A DNA stretch of 64,000 bases from Candidatus Hydrogenedentota bacterium. Its GTDB lineage: Bacteria; UBA8481; J006. The stretch covers positions 1 to 64,000 of the forward strand of contig RFFU01000078.1 in NCBI GenBank assembly GCA_003697085.1, read 5' to 3'. A program made the position numbers and the translations under genes. This document shows, one piece after another, positions 6,848-58,357 of this stretch (position 1 is the first letter of the stretch; every line of letters begins with the position of its first letter). The notes beneath the pieces are model-generated. The model searched no databases and was not told where the DNA came from. It was given only the letters and a program-made list of their open reading frames with translations.

Positions 6848-7654
6848 AACCGACACCTCCCGAGGAACTGATGAGATTCTACACGAATCCTAAGTTCTCT
6901 ATAAACCACTCTTTTGAAAAAGGCGCATTTCCTTGGTGTGTTGCCGTCGTACCGACAGATTCTTTCACTTTTCCGGCCTCAAGCCATCTATCAAATGATG
7001 ATGTTTTTCTCAAATCGTTTAAAAGTGATGCCTATTCCTCCGATTTTTCATCGTTTCTGTTCCAGCGGGTGCGATTTTATTTTGTAGGTAGGGGAGCCTT
7101 GCGGGGGATTCCGAAGCCGTTAAAAACGTCCGCAAACGGACGTTTAGGCCGATGCCTCGGAGGCGGCCAGGATGGCCGCCGAGAAAGAGTGAAAGACGAT
7201 ATTGGACAACTAGAAGCGGTTTCATAAGGCTCCCTTTCTCCTTGATAATGAAGGATTTCCGAGGCCATAACGGTACTTATGAAACCGCGTCTACCTACTT
7301 TTTGAATCCGCACCCGTTTCGGCAGTTTTCTTCACCGCCAGACCAATTTCAGCGAAGGTATTTGTCGTGAGAGGCTTTTTCGGTGAAAAGCCATTTATCA
7401 GAAAGAATGAAGCCGACGAATTACACCGTTGTCTACGTAGATCACAGTAAGGTTTTCTTACCACACCATTGGAATCTGAAAGCCGATTTTCGACTTTTTC
7501 GTCATCGCTTATCTAGACTGGATTCCGTTCACGCGATATATTCCCTAATTACAGGCCGATGAACAATATCAGTCGGAGGTTTCGAACCTTACTTTGTGCA
7601 AGATAGACACAACACCTTTGCGCCGACTCCATCTTGAAATCGAAAGGATTATTC
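6848..7654. other. A/T-rich gene-less spacer with hairpins
   Basis: About 800 bp between the divergent small membrane protein gene and the MBOAT gene. I see no credible gene. Composition turns A/T-rich at about 6870 and stays so to about 10210. The middle (7084-7298) holds nested inverted repeats described separately. The remainder (7299-7640) shows no structure I can name. Confidence 0.6.
7084..7298. repeat. Nested inverted repeats with two perfect hairpins
   Basis: Four paired elements lie in 215 bp. (1) GTAGGTAG at 7084-7091 and its complement at 7291-7298. (2) A 9-bp stem with CAAA loop at 7124-7145 (AAACGTCCG/CGGACGTTT). (3) An 8-bp stem with a 3-base loop at 7162-7180 (GGCGGCCA/TGGCCGCC). 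(4) A 13-bp perfect inverted repeat, GCGGTTTCATAAG at 7216-7228 and its complement at 7276-7288. There is no transposase, so a MITE-like element or a structured RNA are both possible. Confidence 0.6.
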
Positions 7655-9097
7655 GTGTTATTCAATTCCTTTGATTTCGCAATTTTCTTACCCATAGTTT
7701 TTGCTGTCTATTGGATGTTGCGTAAAAACTTACGGCTACAAAACGCTTTTATCGTCGCCGCAAGTTATATTTTTTACGGGTGGTGGGATTGGCGTTTCCT
7801 CTCGCTTATTCTTTTGAGCACTTTAATTGACTACTGTGCCGGGCGTGCTCTTTCGCGCACTGAAAACCCAGCAACTCGAAAAAAGATTCTTTTGTGCAGC
7901 CTCGTAGGTAATCTTGGTATTCTTGGATTTTTCAAGTATTTTAATTTTTTCCTTGACACCTTTCTTTCCGCTTTCTCCTTTTTCGGTGTTAAAATTTCGG
8001 GGCATTATTTGAACATCATTCTCCCTGTGGGAATCAGTTTTTATACATTTCAGACAATGAGCTATACCATCGATGTCTTCCGGCGAAAAATGGACGCTTG
8101 CAATAATTTCCTCGCCTTCGCCGCCTATGTCAGTTTCTTTCCTCAATTGGTAGCCGGGCCGATCGAGCGCGCCACGCACTTACTCCCACAATTCGAAATT
8201 GACCGCCATTTCGACTATTCGAAATCCGTCGATGGATTGCGCCAATGTCTTTGGGGGGGGTTCAAAAAAGTCGTGATTGCCGACAACTGTGGTCATTTTG
8301 TCAACTTGATCTACTTCTCTCCTGATAGTCACAGCGGAAGCACACTATTTTTGGCAACAGTTCTTTTTTCTTTTCAAATCTATGGAGACTTTTCCGGCTA
8401 TTCCGATATCGCTATTGGAGTTTCACGTCTCTTCGGCTTTGATCTGCGGCGTAATTTCGCGTACCCTTATTTTTCCAGGGATATCGCTGAATTTTGGAGA
8501 AGATGGCACATTTCCTTGTCGACGTGGTTTCGCGATTACCTCTACATTCCTCTCGGTGGAAGTCGTTGTAACACAACAAAAAAAATCCGCAACACGTTTG
8601 CCATTTTTCTTGTGAGTGGCTTTTGGCACGGCGCCAACTGGACTTTCCTCGCTTGGGGAACGCTTCACGCCTGCTTTTTTCTTCCCCTGCTTCTGGCAAA
8701 CCGCAATCGCCGGCATCTCGGTATTGTATCGGAGAAAAACGCTCTTCCCTCTTTAAGTGAACTCCGCTCGATCATAACAACCTTCGCGCTGGTAACACTC
8801 GGGTGGGTTTTCTTTCGTTCCAATTCCTTGGCAACCGCAATGCATATTCTCAACAAAATCTTTTCGACAAGCCTTCTCTCTGTCCCAGAACTCCCGGAAG
8901 CACCGATTACTCTCTTTTCTTTGCTCGCTTTTCTGTTAATCGCCGAATGGATCGGCCGGTATTACGAACATCCGTTGATGATTCTTCAAACGATCCCGTC
9001 ACGTTTTTTTCGGTACACATCTTATTATGGGCTCGTTCTTCTAATACTACTCTTCGGCAGTTTTGATAACATGGAATTCATTTATTTTCAGTTTTGA
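7655..9097 (+). CDS. MBOAT-family O-acyltransferase (AlgI-like)
   Basis: Polytopic membrane acyltransferase expected to move an acyl (often acetyl) group across the membrane for O-acylation of a polysaccharide. The 480-residue protein has many membrane segments. It carries the family signature: RRWHISLSTWFRDYLYIPLG (conserved His near 285) and VSGFWHGANWTFLAWG (catalytic His near 325). GTG 7655 gives the typical MLFNSFDF start, with AAAGGA six bases upstream; an in-frame TTG at 7634 is less likely. The next gene encodes an SGNH-type partner, the usual AlgI/AlgJ-like pairing. Codons are much richer in A/T than the flanks, suggesting recent acquisition. Confidence 0.92.
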   Translation: MLFNSFDFAIFLPIVFAVYWMLRKNLRLQNAFIVAASYIFYGWWDWRFLSLILLSTLIDYCAGRALSRTENPATRKKILLCSLVGNLGILGFFKYFNFFLDTFLSAFSFFGVKISGHYLNIILPVGISFYTFQTMSYTIDVFRRKMDACNNFLAFAAYVSFFPQLVAGPIERATHLLPQFEIDRHFDYSKSVDGLRQCLWGGFKKVVIADNCGHFVNLIYFSPDSHSGSTLFLATVLFSFQIYGDFSGYSDIAIGVSRLFGFDLRRNFAYPYFSRDIAEFWRRWHISLSTWFRDYLYIPLGGSRCNTTKKIRNTFAIFLVSGFWHGANWTFLAWGTLHACFFLPLLLANRNRRHLGIVSEKNALPSLSELRSIITTFALVTLGWVFFRSNSLATAMHILNKIFSTSLLSVPELPEAPITLFSLLAFLLIAEWIGRYYEHPLMILQTIPSRFFRYTSYYGLVLLILLFGSFDNMEFIYFQF

Positions 9098-9101
9098 AGT
9101 T

Positions 9102-10211
9102 ATGAAATTATTTATCAATAAGATCGTTTCTTTCCTATTTCCAATCTTTCTCACGATTGTAATAACGAACTTCTTCGTTGACCCTGGAACCCGATTTTTT
9201 CGGAAACCCATCGTTGAAAACAAAATTTACAGTGCTCTCCTCCAGGGCCACAATCTTACGGGAATCGGAAACCTCGACGAATTCTCATTTCAACAAAGAC
9301 TGATTTTACAAACGGACCAATGTCCGGAAATTGTCGCCGTCGGCTCAAGTCGGTCAATGCTGATTCACAATTATTATTTTTTTCCCCATTCTTTTCGAAA
9401 CAATAGCATTCCAAATTGCCGAATCTCGGAAATGGCGAGTTTTCTCTTCGAATACATAGAAAAAGGGTGCCGCCCGGATACTGTGTTGATCGAGGTTGAC
9501 CCGTGGTCTTTCGACGCCTCCCACGAAAGAGGAGCCGTCCAAAACACAGATGTTTCGCGGGCATTGACCGCTCTCGGACATTCTCCCCCGGCTGTTCCTC
9601 GTTATCAAAAATGGCTTCGAAAGACGAAGGCGGGTGTCTCTTACGTTTTACCCTTGGTTCTTCCCTCCTATTTTCAGTCGTCCATCCGTCAGTTATACCG
9701 TCACGATACCGGCATTGTTGTCACTGATCAAATTTTCAATACCCTGCCAACCCGTTTGGCCGACGGCTCTCTAAGCTACCAAAAAGCAATTAACACATTG
9801 ACCCCTTCGGAATCCGAAAAACTCGCAATAAAAGATCTCGATCGACCTGACATGAAATCGAAAATTACGAGGTCTCACGTTTCTCACGAAACAATCTCTC
9901 TATTTGAAAATTTTCTGAAATATTTGGAAGAACGACGAATTGAAATTATCATCATCGACCCCCCTCTCCATCCTCTTATTTGGGAATATATATTACAGTC
10001 GCCGGAATGCCGAGAAGTTCTGGAATGGGACAAAATCCTAAAACAAATCGTAAAAAAACATCACATTTTATTGATCGGCTCACTTAATCCGAAATCGCTT
10101 GGAATGAAATCAACTGATTTTGCTAATGGATTTCACCTCAATCAAAAAGGGGTCACCAAGCTTCTTAAGCCGATCTCGACTTGTTCTACACCAAATTGCT
10201 CATCGAAATAA
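9102..10211 (+). CDS. Membrane-anchored SGNH/AlgJ-like protein, partner of the MBOAT acyltransferase
   Basis: Probable acyl-transfer partner of the upstream MBOAT enzyme, working on the outer face of the membrane. It has 369 residues from ATG 9102, four bases after the MBOAT stop. An N-terminal anchor (about 4-25) is followed by VAVGSSRSMLI (about 78-88), which fits the SGNH nucleophile block. Near the C-terminus, STDFANGFHLNQKG supplies the Asp-His block. The middle contains VLIEVDPWSF. Families with this layout include DltD, AlgJ/AlgX and PatB, but I cannot place it in one of them. It shares the A/T-rich composition of its neighbour. Confidence 0.72.
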   Translation: MKLFINKIVSFLFPIFLTIVITNFFVDPGTRFFRKPIVENKIYSALLQGHNLTGIGNLDEFSFQQRLILQTDQCPEIVAVGSSRSMLIHNYYFFPHSFRNNSIPNCRISEMASFLFEYIEKGCRPDTVLIEVDPWSFDASHERGAVQNTDVSRALTALGHSPPAVPRYQKWLRKTKAGVSYVLPLVLPSYFQSSIRQLYRHDTGIVVTDQIFNTLPTRLADGSLSYQKAINTLTPSESEKLAIKDLDRPDMKSKITRSHVSHETISLFENFLKYLEERRIEIIIIDPPLHPLIWEYILQSPECREVLEWDKILKQIVKKHHILLIGSLNPKSLGMKSTDFANGFHLNQKGVTKLLKPISTCSTPNCSSK

Positions 10212-55132: not shown

Positions 55133-56884
55133 TCAACAATCACGCGATATTTGCCGGCCGGTTTGTTCCTCCTCGAGACGCCGACGGACTTGCTCCACTT
55201 CGCGATAGTATTCGTTGTCCAAGTCGACGCCCTTCTGCGCCATAAGTGCATAGAGAATCCTATCAAATCCCCAGCCGACGCACCCGGAACAGCGCCGAAC
55301 ATCGTTCGGAGCGGAAAGTTCGAACTCGAACCGCGAATAGAATACTTGTCCATGGTTGTTAACGGAAACCGCCGCGATGCGTTTTCCGAGATGTGGTATG
55401 GTTAATCGAAACTCCATTTTCGATTCTTCCAGTAATTGGGCCGATTGCTTGATCTTGGAATCCTCACCAAAAAACGGGTCGGCCGCGGTATAGATCCCAA
55501 AATCGAGATCGAGGATATCCCGAAACCACAACCGAGTTTTCTCCAGAATTTCTTCCAGTCGTTCCTTGCAGAAAGCGGCATCACCGACGACAACGATTTC
55601 CCGCATCCAGAAATTGCGAAGCCGATCGAGAATATCACCCTCGCTCTGTTCATTTCGAAAACAATTCGAAGCCGAAGTAAAAATCAAACCATTATGAGGA
55701 ACCCTTTTTTTCGCCAAAGAGCTAAATATGTGGTAGCATACTGTTGGACTCGCTAGACCTCTGAAATGGCTTTCGGGAAGCACGGATTGCACCGTAAGGG
55801 CTTGGTGTTTAAAGGAATTGAGATACTGGCTTCGTGCGGCATTGGTTTGGTCGAGAATCGCCGGAACCTTTACCTCTTTCGCTCCAAGTTCTTTTGCCAT
55901 CTGAAGAATAAAAAAATCGAGAGTAGAGAAGAGTCGCGTCACCTTCGAGCCATAGACCACCAACCCATCTCCCACCGGCCGGATTTCATCGTATTCCCGG
56001 AGAAGCCGTGGAAAATCCGATGTCTTCTTGACGGTCCCGACGTTTTCGTATTTGACACGCGAACGCGCCGTTCGAAGCCATTTTCTCTGCTCCCTCGGCC
56101 GCGATAAAAAGGAGATCAGATAAAAGCGATCTTCTTTCAGTTTCTCGCCTATGACGCGATCTATATCTCGCGCTCGGAAGAGCACCAATGGCGCTCCATG
56201 AAACGTCGTTCTGCGGGCCAAATCGCGGCGGACGAGTTCCTCTTCCAAATCCTGCCAGCTGTCATCTATGTCCAGTTCCCGATATCGAACGTAGTAACGG
56301 CTTTTGACTCGAAATTCCTCCGTACCGTCCTTGATCGGTCCCCAGAAATCCTTGTAATAACGATAGGGCACGCCATATTTTTCTTCCGAAGCATAGACGC
56401 ACGTGGCCCCTTTTTGGATGGGTATCCCAAACATCAAGTAGAGAAAGTCGTGTTCGAACATCTTAGCGAAAAAGGACTTCGGTCCAAAACACTCGTAACT
56501 ATCGATTCGCAACAATTCATCCGCGGCCGGACCCAAGCCCGCATAGGAGAAGATCGGATGGCGCGACCGCTTTACTCCCGGATAGCGACGAAAATAGTCG
56601 GTAAGCGCTCCGACCGTGGAGGGGGTCTCCGCGACATCATAAAGTTCGCCGGAACACGCCGAATATGTGAAGGTCGGCATCAATAACGTTCCGGCTCTTC
56701 CCACCGCAGCGATGAGCGTCTCAGTATAGACCCTGAACAGCGCCTCAACCCCCTCTTTCGCGACCAAAGGGCGTAAATCCTTGGGCACTCCGAAAGCGGA
56801 AGCATCGCTGTGCACCGCAACGACGTCTCCTTCTTTCAACCCCAAGCTTCTTAAAACGTCCAGAAGTTCTTCATATACCGTCAT
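55133..56884 (-). CDS. Fusion of AAC(3)-type N-acyltransferase and amino acid:carrier-protein ligase-like domain
   Basis: 583 residues in two parts. Residues 1-265 match the AAC(3)/YokD antibiotic N-acetyltransferase fold: VHSDASAFG, LLMPTFTYSACSG and HPIFSYAGLGPAADELL. Residues about 275-565 form a class II aminoacyl-tRNA-synthetase-like core without a tRNA-binding arm. Motif 2 is NCFRNE (Arg410, Glu412), and motif 3 is GWGFDRILYAL (Arg542). Candidate zinc ligands are Cys383, Glu429 and Cys532/535, as in atypical SerRS-like amino acid:[carrier protein] ligases. An acyl carrier protein gene lies nine bases upstream. Known ligases load an amino acid onto carrier phosphopantetheine; transfer from the carrier to an amine by the AAC(3) part is inference. 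Confidence 0.82.
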   Translation of the reverse strand: MTVYEELLDVLRSLGLKEGDVVAVHSDASAFGVPKDLRPLVAKEGVEALFRVYTETLIAAVGRAGTLLMPTFTYSACSGELYDVAETPSTVGALTDYFRRYPGVKRSRHPIFSYAGLGPAADELLRIDSYECFGPKSFFAKMFEHDFLYLMFGIPIQKGATCVYASEEKYGVPYRYYKDFWGPIKDGTEEFRVKSRYYVRYRELDIDDSWQDLEEELVRRDLARRTTFHGAPLVLFRARDIDRVIGEKLKEDRFYLISFLSRPREQRKWLRTARSRVKYENVGTVKKTSDFPRLLREYDEIRPVGDGLVVYGSKVTRLFSTLDFFILQMAKELGAKEVKVPAILDQTNAARSQYLNSFKHQALTVQSVLPESHFRGLASPTVCYHIFSSLAKKRVPHNGLIFTSASNCFRNEQSEGDILDRLRNFWMREIVVVGDAAFCKERLEEILEKTRLWFRDILDLDFGIYTAADPFFGEDSKIKQSAQLLEESKMEFRLTIPHLGKRIAAVSVNNHGQVFYSRFEFELSAPNDVRRCSGCVGWGFDRILYALMAQKGVDLDNEYYREVEQVRRRLEEEQTGRQISRDC

Positions 56885-56893
56885 ATTCTCGAT

Positions 56894-57151
56894 TCAGCCC
56901 GTTGCTCTCTCCACATAATCGACGAGGTCTGAAAATGTTCCTATCTCCCTGAACTCCTCCGGTCCGATTTCAATATCAAAACGCTCCTCAATCGCCATTA
57001 AATAGGTTAAATGCTTGAAAGAATCCCACCCTGGTAAATTTCTGATCTCCGTCGAAAGCGAATATTTCTCGATATCCGAAAGGTGGAATGGTAAAGTCGC
57101 CAAAACGTTTTTCAACTCCGCGAATATGTCGCTCGAATTCTGTTTCGTCAT
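56894..57151 (-). CDS. Acyl carrier protein-like protein
   Basis: 85 residues, acidic, four-helix carrier-protein pattern. The phosphopantetheine site is GWDSFKHLTY with Ser44, a DS variant of the usual DSL. Later helix sequence FDIEIGPEEFREIGTFSDLVDYV fits helix III. It is more divergent than the FabD-type ACP of fatty acid synthesis, as expected of a dedicated carrier. ATG overlaps the VOC gene stop (ATGA). The ligase fusion gene follows nine bases after its stop, so ligase and carrier are almost certainly partners. Confidence 0.9.
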   Translation of the reverse strand: MTKQNSSDIFAELKNVLATLPFHLSDIEKYSLSTEIRNLPGWDSFKHLTYLMAIEERFDIEIGPEEFREIGTFSDLVDYVERATG

Positions 57152-57588
57152 TGTCCCTCCCTCTTCCGACCCGTGATCTCTATTAAACCAACATGCGGAT
57201 GGAAAAAGTGAGCCGCCCAGAAACCCGGCGTCACTTGCGACGCAAATGGTTCCGTTACGAGAAAGAACCCCTGCTTCTGAAGCCGCTCCTTATCTCGCGA
57301 AAAATCCGTTACCGCGAAGCAAATATGATACAGTTGGCTCTCTCGTGTTTCAATAAGATTCTCGACCGGATTCCCTTTCTCCGCCGGTTCGACAAGTTCA
57401 ATCTTGTGGTCAGTCCAGGGTGCTCCAAGATATGTGATGAAAACCTTTTGTTCTGGCTCAAGCTTCTTGTAAGTCCTTATTTCAGGATAAAAAATCGAAA
57501 AAAACCTTATCGCGGCGTCGGTAGAACGCACCGCATAAGCAATATGATCGAGTTGGCCCCCGGGAAAAATATTTGAAACATCACCCAT
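57148..57588 (-). CDS. VOC (glyoxalase/dioxygenase) superfamily protein
   Basis: 146 residues in two beta-alpha-beta-beta-beta units. The first opens DHIAYAVRSTDAAIRFFS with a metal-type His, and IELVEPAEKGNPV supplies the usual Glu. The second opens LYHICFAVTDFSRDKERLQ and ends GLIEITGRKREG. The set resembles methylmalonyl-CoA epimerase and polyketide-linked VOC proteins more than glyoxalase I. A function as epimerase or isomerase on a carrier-bound group is inference. ATG 57588 is chosen over an upstream extension of basic residues. It is the first gene of the cassette. Confidence 0.82.
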   Translation of the reverse strand: MGDVSNIFPGGQLDHIAYAVRSTDAAIRFFSIFYPEIRTYKKLEPEQKVFITYLGAPWTDHKIELVEPAEKGNPVENLIETRESQLYHICFAVTDFSRDKERLQKQGFFLVTEPFASQVTPGFWAAHFFHPHVGLIEITGRKREGQ

Positions 57589-57856
57589 GGAAGTTTCGCC
57601 CCCAAAGGGAGTCCGCGGTGCCTTCGCCGGTCGTCTCCTTTTTCTCCATCGCTTCCGAACCACTCACACGATCCTGGCCCAAGAAAACCATCGCCTTCTC
57701 CTTCAATTCCTTCCGCCAGCGCGAAAAACGGCATAAACCACGTTGGTGAACTTACAGAAACCGATTCGTCTTGTCCACTGCGAAGATTTCGCACGGGACT
57801 GTTTCATCGAAAATTCCTCTTGAAGGAAGACAATAGCAGGTCTAGAGTCCGACCTT

Positions 57857-58357
57857 ATGGTTCGAAGGCACACCATATCGGTATTGGTGGAAAACCAGCA
57901 TGGGGTCTTGGCGCGGATCGCGGGGCTCTTCGCCGCCCGCGGATTCAACATTGATTCTCTCACCGTCGGAAGAACCAAGGACGATACGCTTTCGCGGATG
58001 ACAATCGTGGTTCTGGCCGATGACGAGACGCTCGAACAGATCGTCAAACAACTCGATCGGCTCGTGACAACCGTCCGCGTCGAGGACTACGTGGGACAGG
58101 ACATCGTCGAACGGGAACTGATTCTTTTAAAGGTGCAGCCGGAGCCGGAGAAACGGAACGAGGTCTTCCAGATCGTCGAAATATTCCGCGGAAAGGTCGT
58201 CGACCTCAACCCGCGTAATCTCGTGATCGAGATCACCGGTTCCGAGGGAAAACTTGCGGCGATCATCGAAGCCCTGAAGCCGTACAATGTTCAAGAACTG
58301 GCGCGTTCCGGAAAGATCGCGATGGCGCGGGGAAAGACGCTGAGAGATCCTCTTTGA
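57857..58357 (+). CDS. ilvN: Acetolactate synthase small (regulatory) subunit
   Basis: Regulatory partner of IlvB that confers valine feedback control. It has 166 residues. An ACT domain comes first (HTISVLVENQHGVLARIAGLFAARG, then a strand ending TIVVLAD) and the IlvN C-terminal domain follows, with VERELILLKV and ARSGKIAMARG. The catalytic subunit gene lies about 35 kb away in the other direction. The ribosome binding site is weak. ilvC follows on the same strand, 129 bp on, so they may share a message. Confidence 0.95.
   Translation: MVRRHTISVLVENQHGVLARIAGLFAARGFNIDSLTVGRTKDDTLSRMTIVVLADDETLEQIVKQLDRLVTTVRVEDYVGQDIVERELILLKVQPEPEKRNEVFQIVEIFRGKVVDLNPRNLVIEITGSEGKLAAIIEALKPYNVQELARSGKIAMARGKTLRDPL

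Follow-up and report, generated by a model that had tools for sequence, protein, structure and literature searches.

What would a bacterium do with a protein whose one half has the AAC(3) fold, familiar mainly from antibiotic resistance, and whose other half resembles a seryl-tRNA synthetase (SerRS)? The question is raised by a three-gene cassette at positions 55133-57588 of contig RFFU01000078.1 from a Candidatus Hydrogenedentota bacterium (assembly GCA_003697085.1), of which the first 64,000 nucleotides were analysed (hereafter, the window). All three genes lie on the minus strand, in the order VOC, carrier, fusion: a 146-residue VOC metalloenzyme (P0003; 57148-57588), a dedicated carrier protein of 85 residues (P0002; 56894-57151), and a 583-residue fusion (P0001; 55133-56884) of an AAC(3)-type (Antibiotic_NAT) domain (residues about 1-262; 56099-56884) with a C-terminal SerRS-like ligase core (residues about 275-583; 55133-56062). 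The VOC and carrier genes overlap by 4 bp, and a gap of 9 bp separates the carrier gene from that of the fusion. An earlier reading of the letters by a model without database searches (the sequence-only reading) had described three co-directional genes that overlap or nearly touch, and its coordinates, strands and overlaps were all correct; a check for a frameshift between the halves of P0001 found a single uninterrupted frame. The cassette is read here, with somewhat less than even confidence, as a cytoplasmic, tRNA-independent aminoacyl-transfer module, in which the ligase half would load the carrier, the VOC protein would act on the load, and the AAC(3)-type half would hand it over.

Profile searches support the identity of both halves of the fusion. 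PF02522 matches P0001 over residues 51-243 (E 5.6e-32; 111.6 bits against a cut-off of 25), and NF005479, 'amino acid--[acyl-carrier-protein] ligase', matches the ligase half (E 9e-35); with E-values between 1e-32 and 1e-35, a chance match is excluded. At 120 bits, the NF005479 score is below the equivalog cut-off of 357, placing the ligase half outside the equivalog and inside the wider homologous group. PF00587 matches residues 400-550 (E 5.8e-9), and the closest PDB sequence by phmmer is Bll0957, which a profile search also recovers at E 3e-73. The AlphaFold2 input alignment consisted of ligase rows only, so that the confident model is that of the ligase half, with a predicted local distance difference test score mostly above 90 over residues about 275-575. 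The best Foldseek matches of this model are 4h2s, 4h2w, and 3mey, structures of the glycine:[carrier protein] ligase Bll0957, some of them carrier-bound; the chemistry of Bll0957 is taken from a review and from PDB titles. The candidate zinc triad C383/E429/C535 (first codon, Cys383, at 55736-55738, minus strand), which aligns with that of Bll0957, is invariant across 28 aligned ligases, as are the class II residues R410 and E412 of motif 2 and R542 of motif 3. The SerRS-like core with class II motifs and candidate zinc ligands that had been proposed earlier is thus borne out. The tRNA-binding arm is also missing, as had been anticipated: modelled residues about 275-583 fit the stand-alone Bll0957 fold. 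P0001 therefore resembles the Bll0957-type ligases of Bradyrhizobium (3mey, 4h2s) in its class II core, its zinc triad, its lack of an arm, and its adjoining carrier gene; a carrier gene likewise adjoins or lies close to the ligase in most of the ligase loci retrieved. Unlike Bll0957, which stands alone, P0001 has an AAC(3) domain in front, lacks a segment of about 30 residues before the zinc Cys, and scores far below the NF005479 cut-off. Homology and fold back the carrier-loading role that the sequence-only reading had assigned to the ligase core.

The presumptive substrate of such loading is P0002, which scores 21.3 bits with PF00550, barely above the cut-off of 20.8, and whose predicted phosphopantetheine attachment site is Ser44 (codon 57020-57022, minus strand) within the motif GWDSFKH. 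The same W[DN]SxxH form is found in the carriers of two AAC(3) loci described below, namely the FkbH locus of G111 and the Maritalea locus, in the carriers of ligase loci where a GNAT, AAC(3), or formyltransferase gene is a neighbour, and in those of most ligase loci with MBOAT neighbours (L068, L070, L082, and L100; L055 is without it). It is absent from the numerous ligase loci of actinomycetes (which have AINSLAF and similar forms) and from the genome's fatty-acid acyl carrier protein (GADSLDTVEL). That fatty-acid-type protein was the single hit of a PF00550 search of the genome, which missed P0002 itself with its score so close to the cut-off, and more weak carriers may therefore exist. 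One AcpS-type transferase is encoded in the genome.

The third protein, P0003, matches PF13669 (E 1.5e-11). A simple identity as methylmalonyl-CoA epimerase was rejected, its TIGR03081 score of 44 bits being below the cut-off of 115. Its metal-ligand positions H15/E64/H88/E137 align with methylmalonyl-CoA epimerase (PDB) and are invariant among three aligned VOC proteins; one of the metal ligands of the epimerase is Gln, where P0003 has Glu. A tblastn search of plasmids at E <1e-5 retrieved nine CmaC records, ten from Rahnella, and one from Azospirillum, with identities to P0003 of 35% (CmaC, over 88% of P0003), 34%, and 37%, respectively. The Rahnella gene is set among genes for an adenylation (A) domain, a carrier, an acyl-CoA dehydrogenase, and a ketoacyl synthase, and the Azospirillum gene adjoins those for an A-domain-PCP protein and a PhyH-family enzyme. 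CmaC, of the coronamic acid pathway, generates a carbanion at the alpha position of an aminoacyl group that is attached to a carrier protein. The resemblance of P0003 to CmaC and to the VOC proteins of A-domain/carrier clusters suggests that its site of action, too, is the alpha carbon of an amino acid bound to a carrier. The genome differs from the CmaC setting in that no PhyH-type enzyme, such as the halogenase of that pathway, was found in it; cyclopropane synthesis was rejected on this ground, and inversion at the alpha carbon would therefore be the most natural role of P0003. As a separate observation, in a Longirhabdus locus (L119, 4194-6766) a SerRS-like ligase gene is flanked by a chlorinating-enzyme-like gene on one side and a VOC gene on the other, a row that resembles a coronamate-type route with the ligase in the place of the A domain.

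What, then, does the AAC(3)-type half contribute? Beyond PF02522, it is matched by NCBIfam AAC(3) models and, in a phmmer search of the PDB, by AAC(3)-IVa. In a tree of 37 AAC(3)-type domains, it falls within a clade of ten (support 95/93), seven of which share a locus with carrier domains and three of which adjoin DUF4910 genes (L037, by Pfam; L038 and L022, by sequence). The carrier-loading enzymes seen with members of this clade differ. In G111, a MaoC-AAC(3) fusion is accompanied by FkbH and a carrier; in Maritalea (L048), an AAC(3) domain is fused directly to FkbH (TIGR01686, 290 bits against a cut-off of 147); and A-domain loaders are seen in the loci of Solidesulfovibrio and G119 (both by annotation and Pfam) and of Paenibacillus (by sequence). 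The Maritalea fusion gives the combination of loader and AAC(3) a precedent, differing from P0001 in that its loader is FkbH (HAD-IIIC). P0001 is thus a further case of a loader-plus-AAC(3) pattern, with a SerRS-like ligase in a position where none was seen elsewhere. A related gene set has also been described in Clostridium acetobutylicum, where CA_C2186-2199 includes a glyoxylase (VOC), an acyl carrier protein, an aminosugar N-acetyltransferase, and a fusion annotated as 'aminosugar N-acetyltransferase + HAD phosphatase', and for which surface-sugar modification was proposed (Das et al. 2014, PMC4000134). The window cassette shares with that locus a carrier protein and a VOC protein, and differs from both it and the Maritalea locus in having no adjoining DUF4910, NeuB, or glycosyltransferase genes. 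Fusions of AAC(3) with DUF4910 were also noted beside carrier, KAS III-like, or SDR-like genes (L156, 76-2166; L158, 115-2211; L039, 9942-11822; L042, 7627-9540).

The fusion was looked for widely. No second AAC(3)-ligase fusion was found in the genome itself, in 386 diverse genomes, in 383 genomes around G111 (a set that partly overlaps the former), or in plasmids, and two scans of viral contigs gave no relative. The sole same-order genome available for comparison, from a poorly sampled lineage, had no match to the fusion. Finally, all 68 ligase loci drawn from 84,980 species genomes were without a fused AAC(3) domain, in a scan that used two exact ligase peptide patterns and that fusions without those peptides escape, so that absence there is no proof. 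The literature search, which covered few subscription journals, found no paper on an AAC(3)/FkbH/carrier system and none linking N3-acetyltransferase, acyl carrier protein, alanyl, and polysaccharide. The sequence-only reading had known of no described system with this architecture; this holds for the SerRS-like ligase as a fused loader, seen nowhere else, and does not hold for the loader-AAC(3) kind, of which Maritalea and C. acetobutylicum provide examples.

From these parts, the following course of events may be proposed. The host's AcpS would attach phosphopantetheine to Ser44 of P0002, and the C-terminal half of P0001 would then use ATP to activate a small amino acid and would attach it to the carrier in thioester linkage, like the Bll0957-type ligases. 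Loading is the best supported step, and both of these stages draw on homology, fold, and conserved residues. P0003 would next deprotonate the loaded amino acid at its alpha carbon (enolisation) and most likely epimerise it, a step suggested by its VOC relatives and ligand positions. Finally, the AAC(3)-type half would bind the loaded carrier and deliver its aminoacyl group to an amine, which is most likely that of a nucleotide-linked amino sugar bound for the cell surface. We infer the identity of the amino acid, the chemistry, and the acceptor, and the amino sugar is a guess; it is a reasonable one because the genome holds nine strong matches to DegT-family aminotransferases outside the cassette and because the clade is located in sugar loci. 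In its most specific and rather unlikely form, the proposal would have a SerRS-derived ligase load the amino acid, a CmaC-like VOC protein invert it to the D form, and a carrier-linked AAC(3) domain, operating without the usual histidine, join this D-aminoacyl group to an amino sugar. The whole pathway would then be independent of tRNA and of nonribosomal peptide synthetases and be encoded in one cassette of three genes.

Several observations weigh against this proposal, the first of them concerning the last step. AAC(3) enzymes carry a catalytic motif, TxPhiHPhiAE, whose histidine accepts a proton from the acceptor amine, and His-to-Ala variants are described as catalytically impaired or inactive (PMC8956665). 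P0001 reads T161-C-V-Y164-A-S-E167, keeping the Thr and the Glu, as it shares them and the PF02522 fold family with AAC(3)-IVa, FrbF, and YokD, and having Tyr164 (codon 56393-56395, minus strand) for the histidine; its place in a carrier-linked clade and its fused ligase set it further apart from those proteins. The histidine is kept in nearly all of 45 AAC(3) homologue rows (some loci counted twice), the exceptions being the window protein, L017 and L031 (all Tyr), and Solidesulfovibrio L047 (Val); a later match with an adjoining carrier gene, L155, apparently also lacks it (TFTVYIE). Consequently, N-acyl transfer by this half is not assured, and P0001 is placed in the AAC(3) fold family only, not among the AAC(3) acetyltransferases; of the acyltransferase domain that had been predicted, the domain and fold stand and the acyl transfer is weakened. 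An identity as an aminoglycoside resistance gene was rejected, given the carrier-linked clade and the missing histidine. Direct hand-over by a fused loader and transferase, as the sequence-only reading had it, is similarly divided: membership of a carrier-linked clade and the fusion itself speak for it, and Tyr164 weakens it. Other points concern the remaining parts. A tightly packed, co-directional run of four separate genes in a Phycisphaerae metagenome-assembled genome, for a carrier, a ligase, a GNAT, and an AAC(3), speaks for the proposal; the AAC(3) encoded there lies outside the clade, no other member of which was seen beside a SerRS-like ligase. The ligase half is without the segment of about 30 residues that precedes the zinc Cys in most ligases, and it is the longest branch of the ligase tree (2.66 changes per site against a median of 0.15). 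The VOC similarity is just 33-38%, in a family with widely divergent functions. No amino-sugar gene adjoins the cassette in the window. Lastly, the fusion is a single instance.

The SerRS-like ligases also occur in other company. In three Gemmatimonadetes-type clusters, a carrier domain is fused N-terminally to the ligase (L056, 4051-5196; L057, 9833-10972; L058, 2524-3744), and these ligases, like P0001, lack the segment before the zinc Cys. In five other loci, the ligase and carrier lie directly with an MBOAT gene (PF03062; L055, 5432-9085; L068, 8113-11135; L070, 7874-10845; L082, 4865-8941; L100, 6858-10929), some of them with a weakly GDSL-like partner, and these look like Dlt-type surface aminoacylation with the ligase replacing DltA. 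In the Dlt system (DltA-DltC-DltB-DltD), a ligase and a carrier deliver D-alanine to the cell surface; there the loader is an A domain, whereas in the window cassette it is a class II ligase, and the cassette has no MBOAT/DltD pair. The window does contain, at 7634-10211 and about 45 kb from the cassette, an MBOAT gene (PF03062) and a weakly DUF1574-like gene with guanine-plus-cytosine (GC) contents of 0.44 and 0.42, the highest A/T content among the measured window genes, the carrier gene excepted.

Might the AAC(3) half, then, be a non-catalytic docking or acceptor-binding domain, with the aminoacyl-carrier used by some other enzyme, such as this MBOAT/DUF1574-like pair? Tyr164 would be explained, the five MBOAT loci show ligase, carrier, and MBOAT genes side by side, and the pair shares with the cassette an unusually low GC content. 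Nevertheless, T161 and E167 are kept and the domain is of full length, the pair shares no operon with the cassette from its 45-kb distance, and none of the ligases seen at MBOAT loci bears an AAC(3) domain; we consider this explanation unlikely, if worth keeping in mind.

A further explanation, which we hold to be about as doubtful, turns the direction of transfer around: the carrier-bound amino acid would be the acceptor, its alpha-amine would be N-acylated by the AAC(3) half from an acyl-CoA, and the resulting N-acyl-aminoacyl-carrier would be used by another enzyme. Acetyl-CoA is the donor for classical AAC(3) enzymes, and unrelated N-acyl-transfer genes do lie beside ligase-carrier pairs, namely a formyltransferase in Lindowbacteria (L122 and L040), GNATs in L060 (by sequence) and L063, and an AAC(3) in L063. 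The missing histidine speaks against this explanation, and so do those AAC(3) domains of the clade that have FkbH and A-domain loaders fused to them or encoded beside them, since with such loaders the role of donor suits the carrier better. The Lindowbacteria row itself (L122, 9716-12074, equal to L040, 7386-9741) consists of a ligase and carrier followed by a formyltransferase-family gene in an apparent sugar-nucleotide locus, and the carrier-bound amino acid there is possibly formylated.

Less probable still is that the carrier serves for building a free product, either an unusual amino acid or a small metabolite, much as in the coronamic acid pathway, with the AAC(3) half merely releasing or capping it. 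The relatives of P0003 do include CmaC and the Azospirillum protein encoded beside a PhyH-type enzyme, and the Longirhabdus ligase lies between chlorinating-enzyme-like and VOC genes. Set against this, the genome lacks a PhyH-type enzyme, the cassette has neither thioesterase nor exporter, and the PF00550 search found no further carrier set in the genome. Finally, an assembly chimera or a decaying, non-functional gene, which the single instance, the low GC content, and the lack of a relative in the sole same-order genome might suggest, is very improbable given the clean 583-residue frame, the conserved zinc and motif residues, the tight coupling to the carrier and VOC genes, and a GC content that differs from the flanks across the whole cassette.

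The setting of the cassette adds to this picture. Its GC content is 0.494 against 0.567 and 0.572 in the flanks, confirming the A/T-richness noticed in the sequence-only reading, and the MBOAT pair at 7634-10211 comprises the sole other strongly A/T-rich genes among the window genes measured. On the upstream side, ilvN (named from sequence) starts at 57857 and is divergent from the cassette. The intergenic region between them (57589-57856) is where the cassette promoter is expected, and a promoter scan of it gave no signal above chance. A mobile element was considered and rejected, a repeat search having yielded short, weak pairs only.

Read as an aminoacyl-transfer module, the cassette would provide an orphan family of enzymes with a function open to testing: what these ligases do has been stated as unknown (PMC9437257), and here the matter can be tested with three proteins. 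The clade to which the AAC(3)-type half belongs suggests, moreover, that within the AAC(3) fold one branch consists of carrier-protein-dependent acyltransferases that pair with FkbH, A domains, and SerRS-like ligases.

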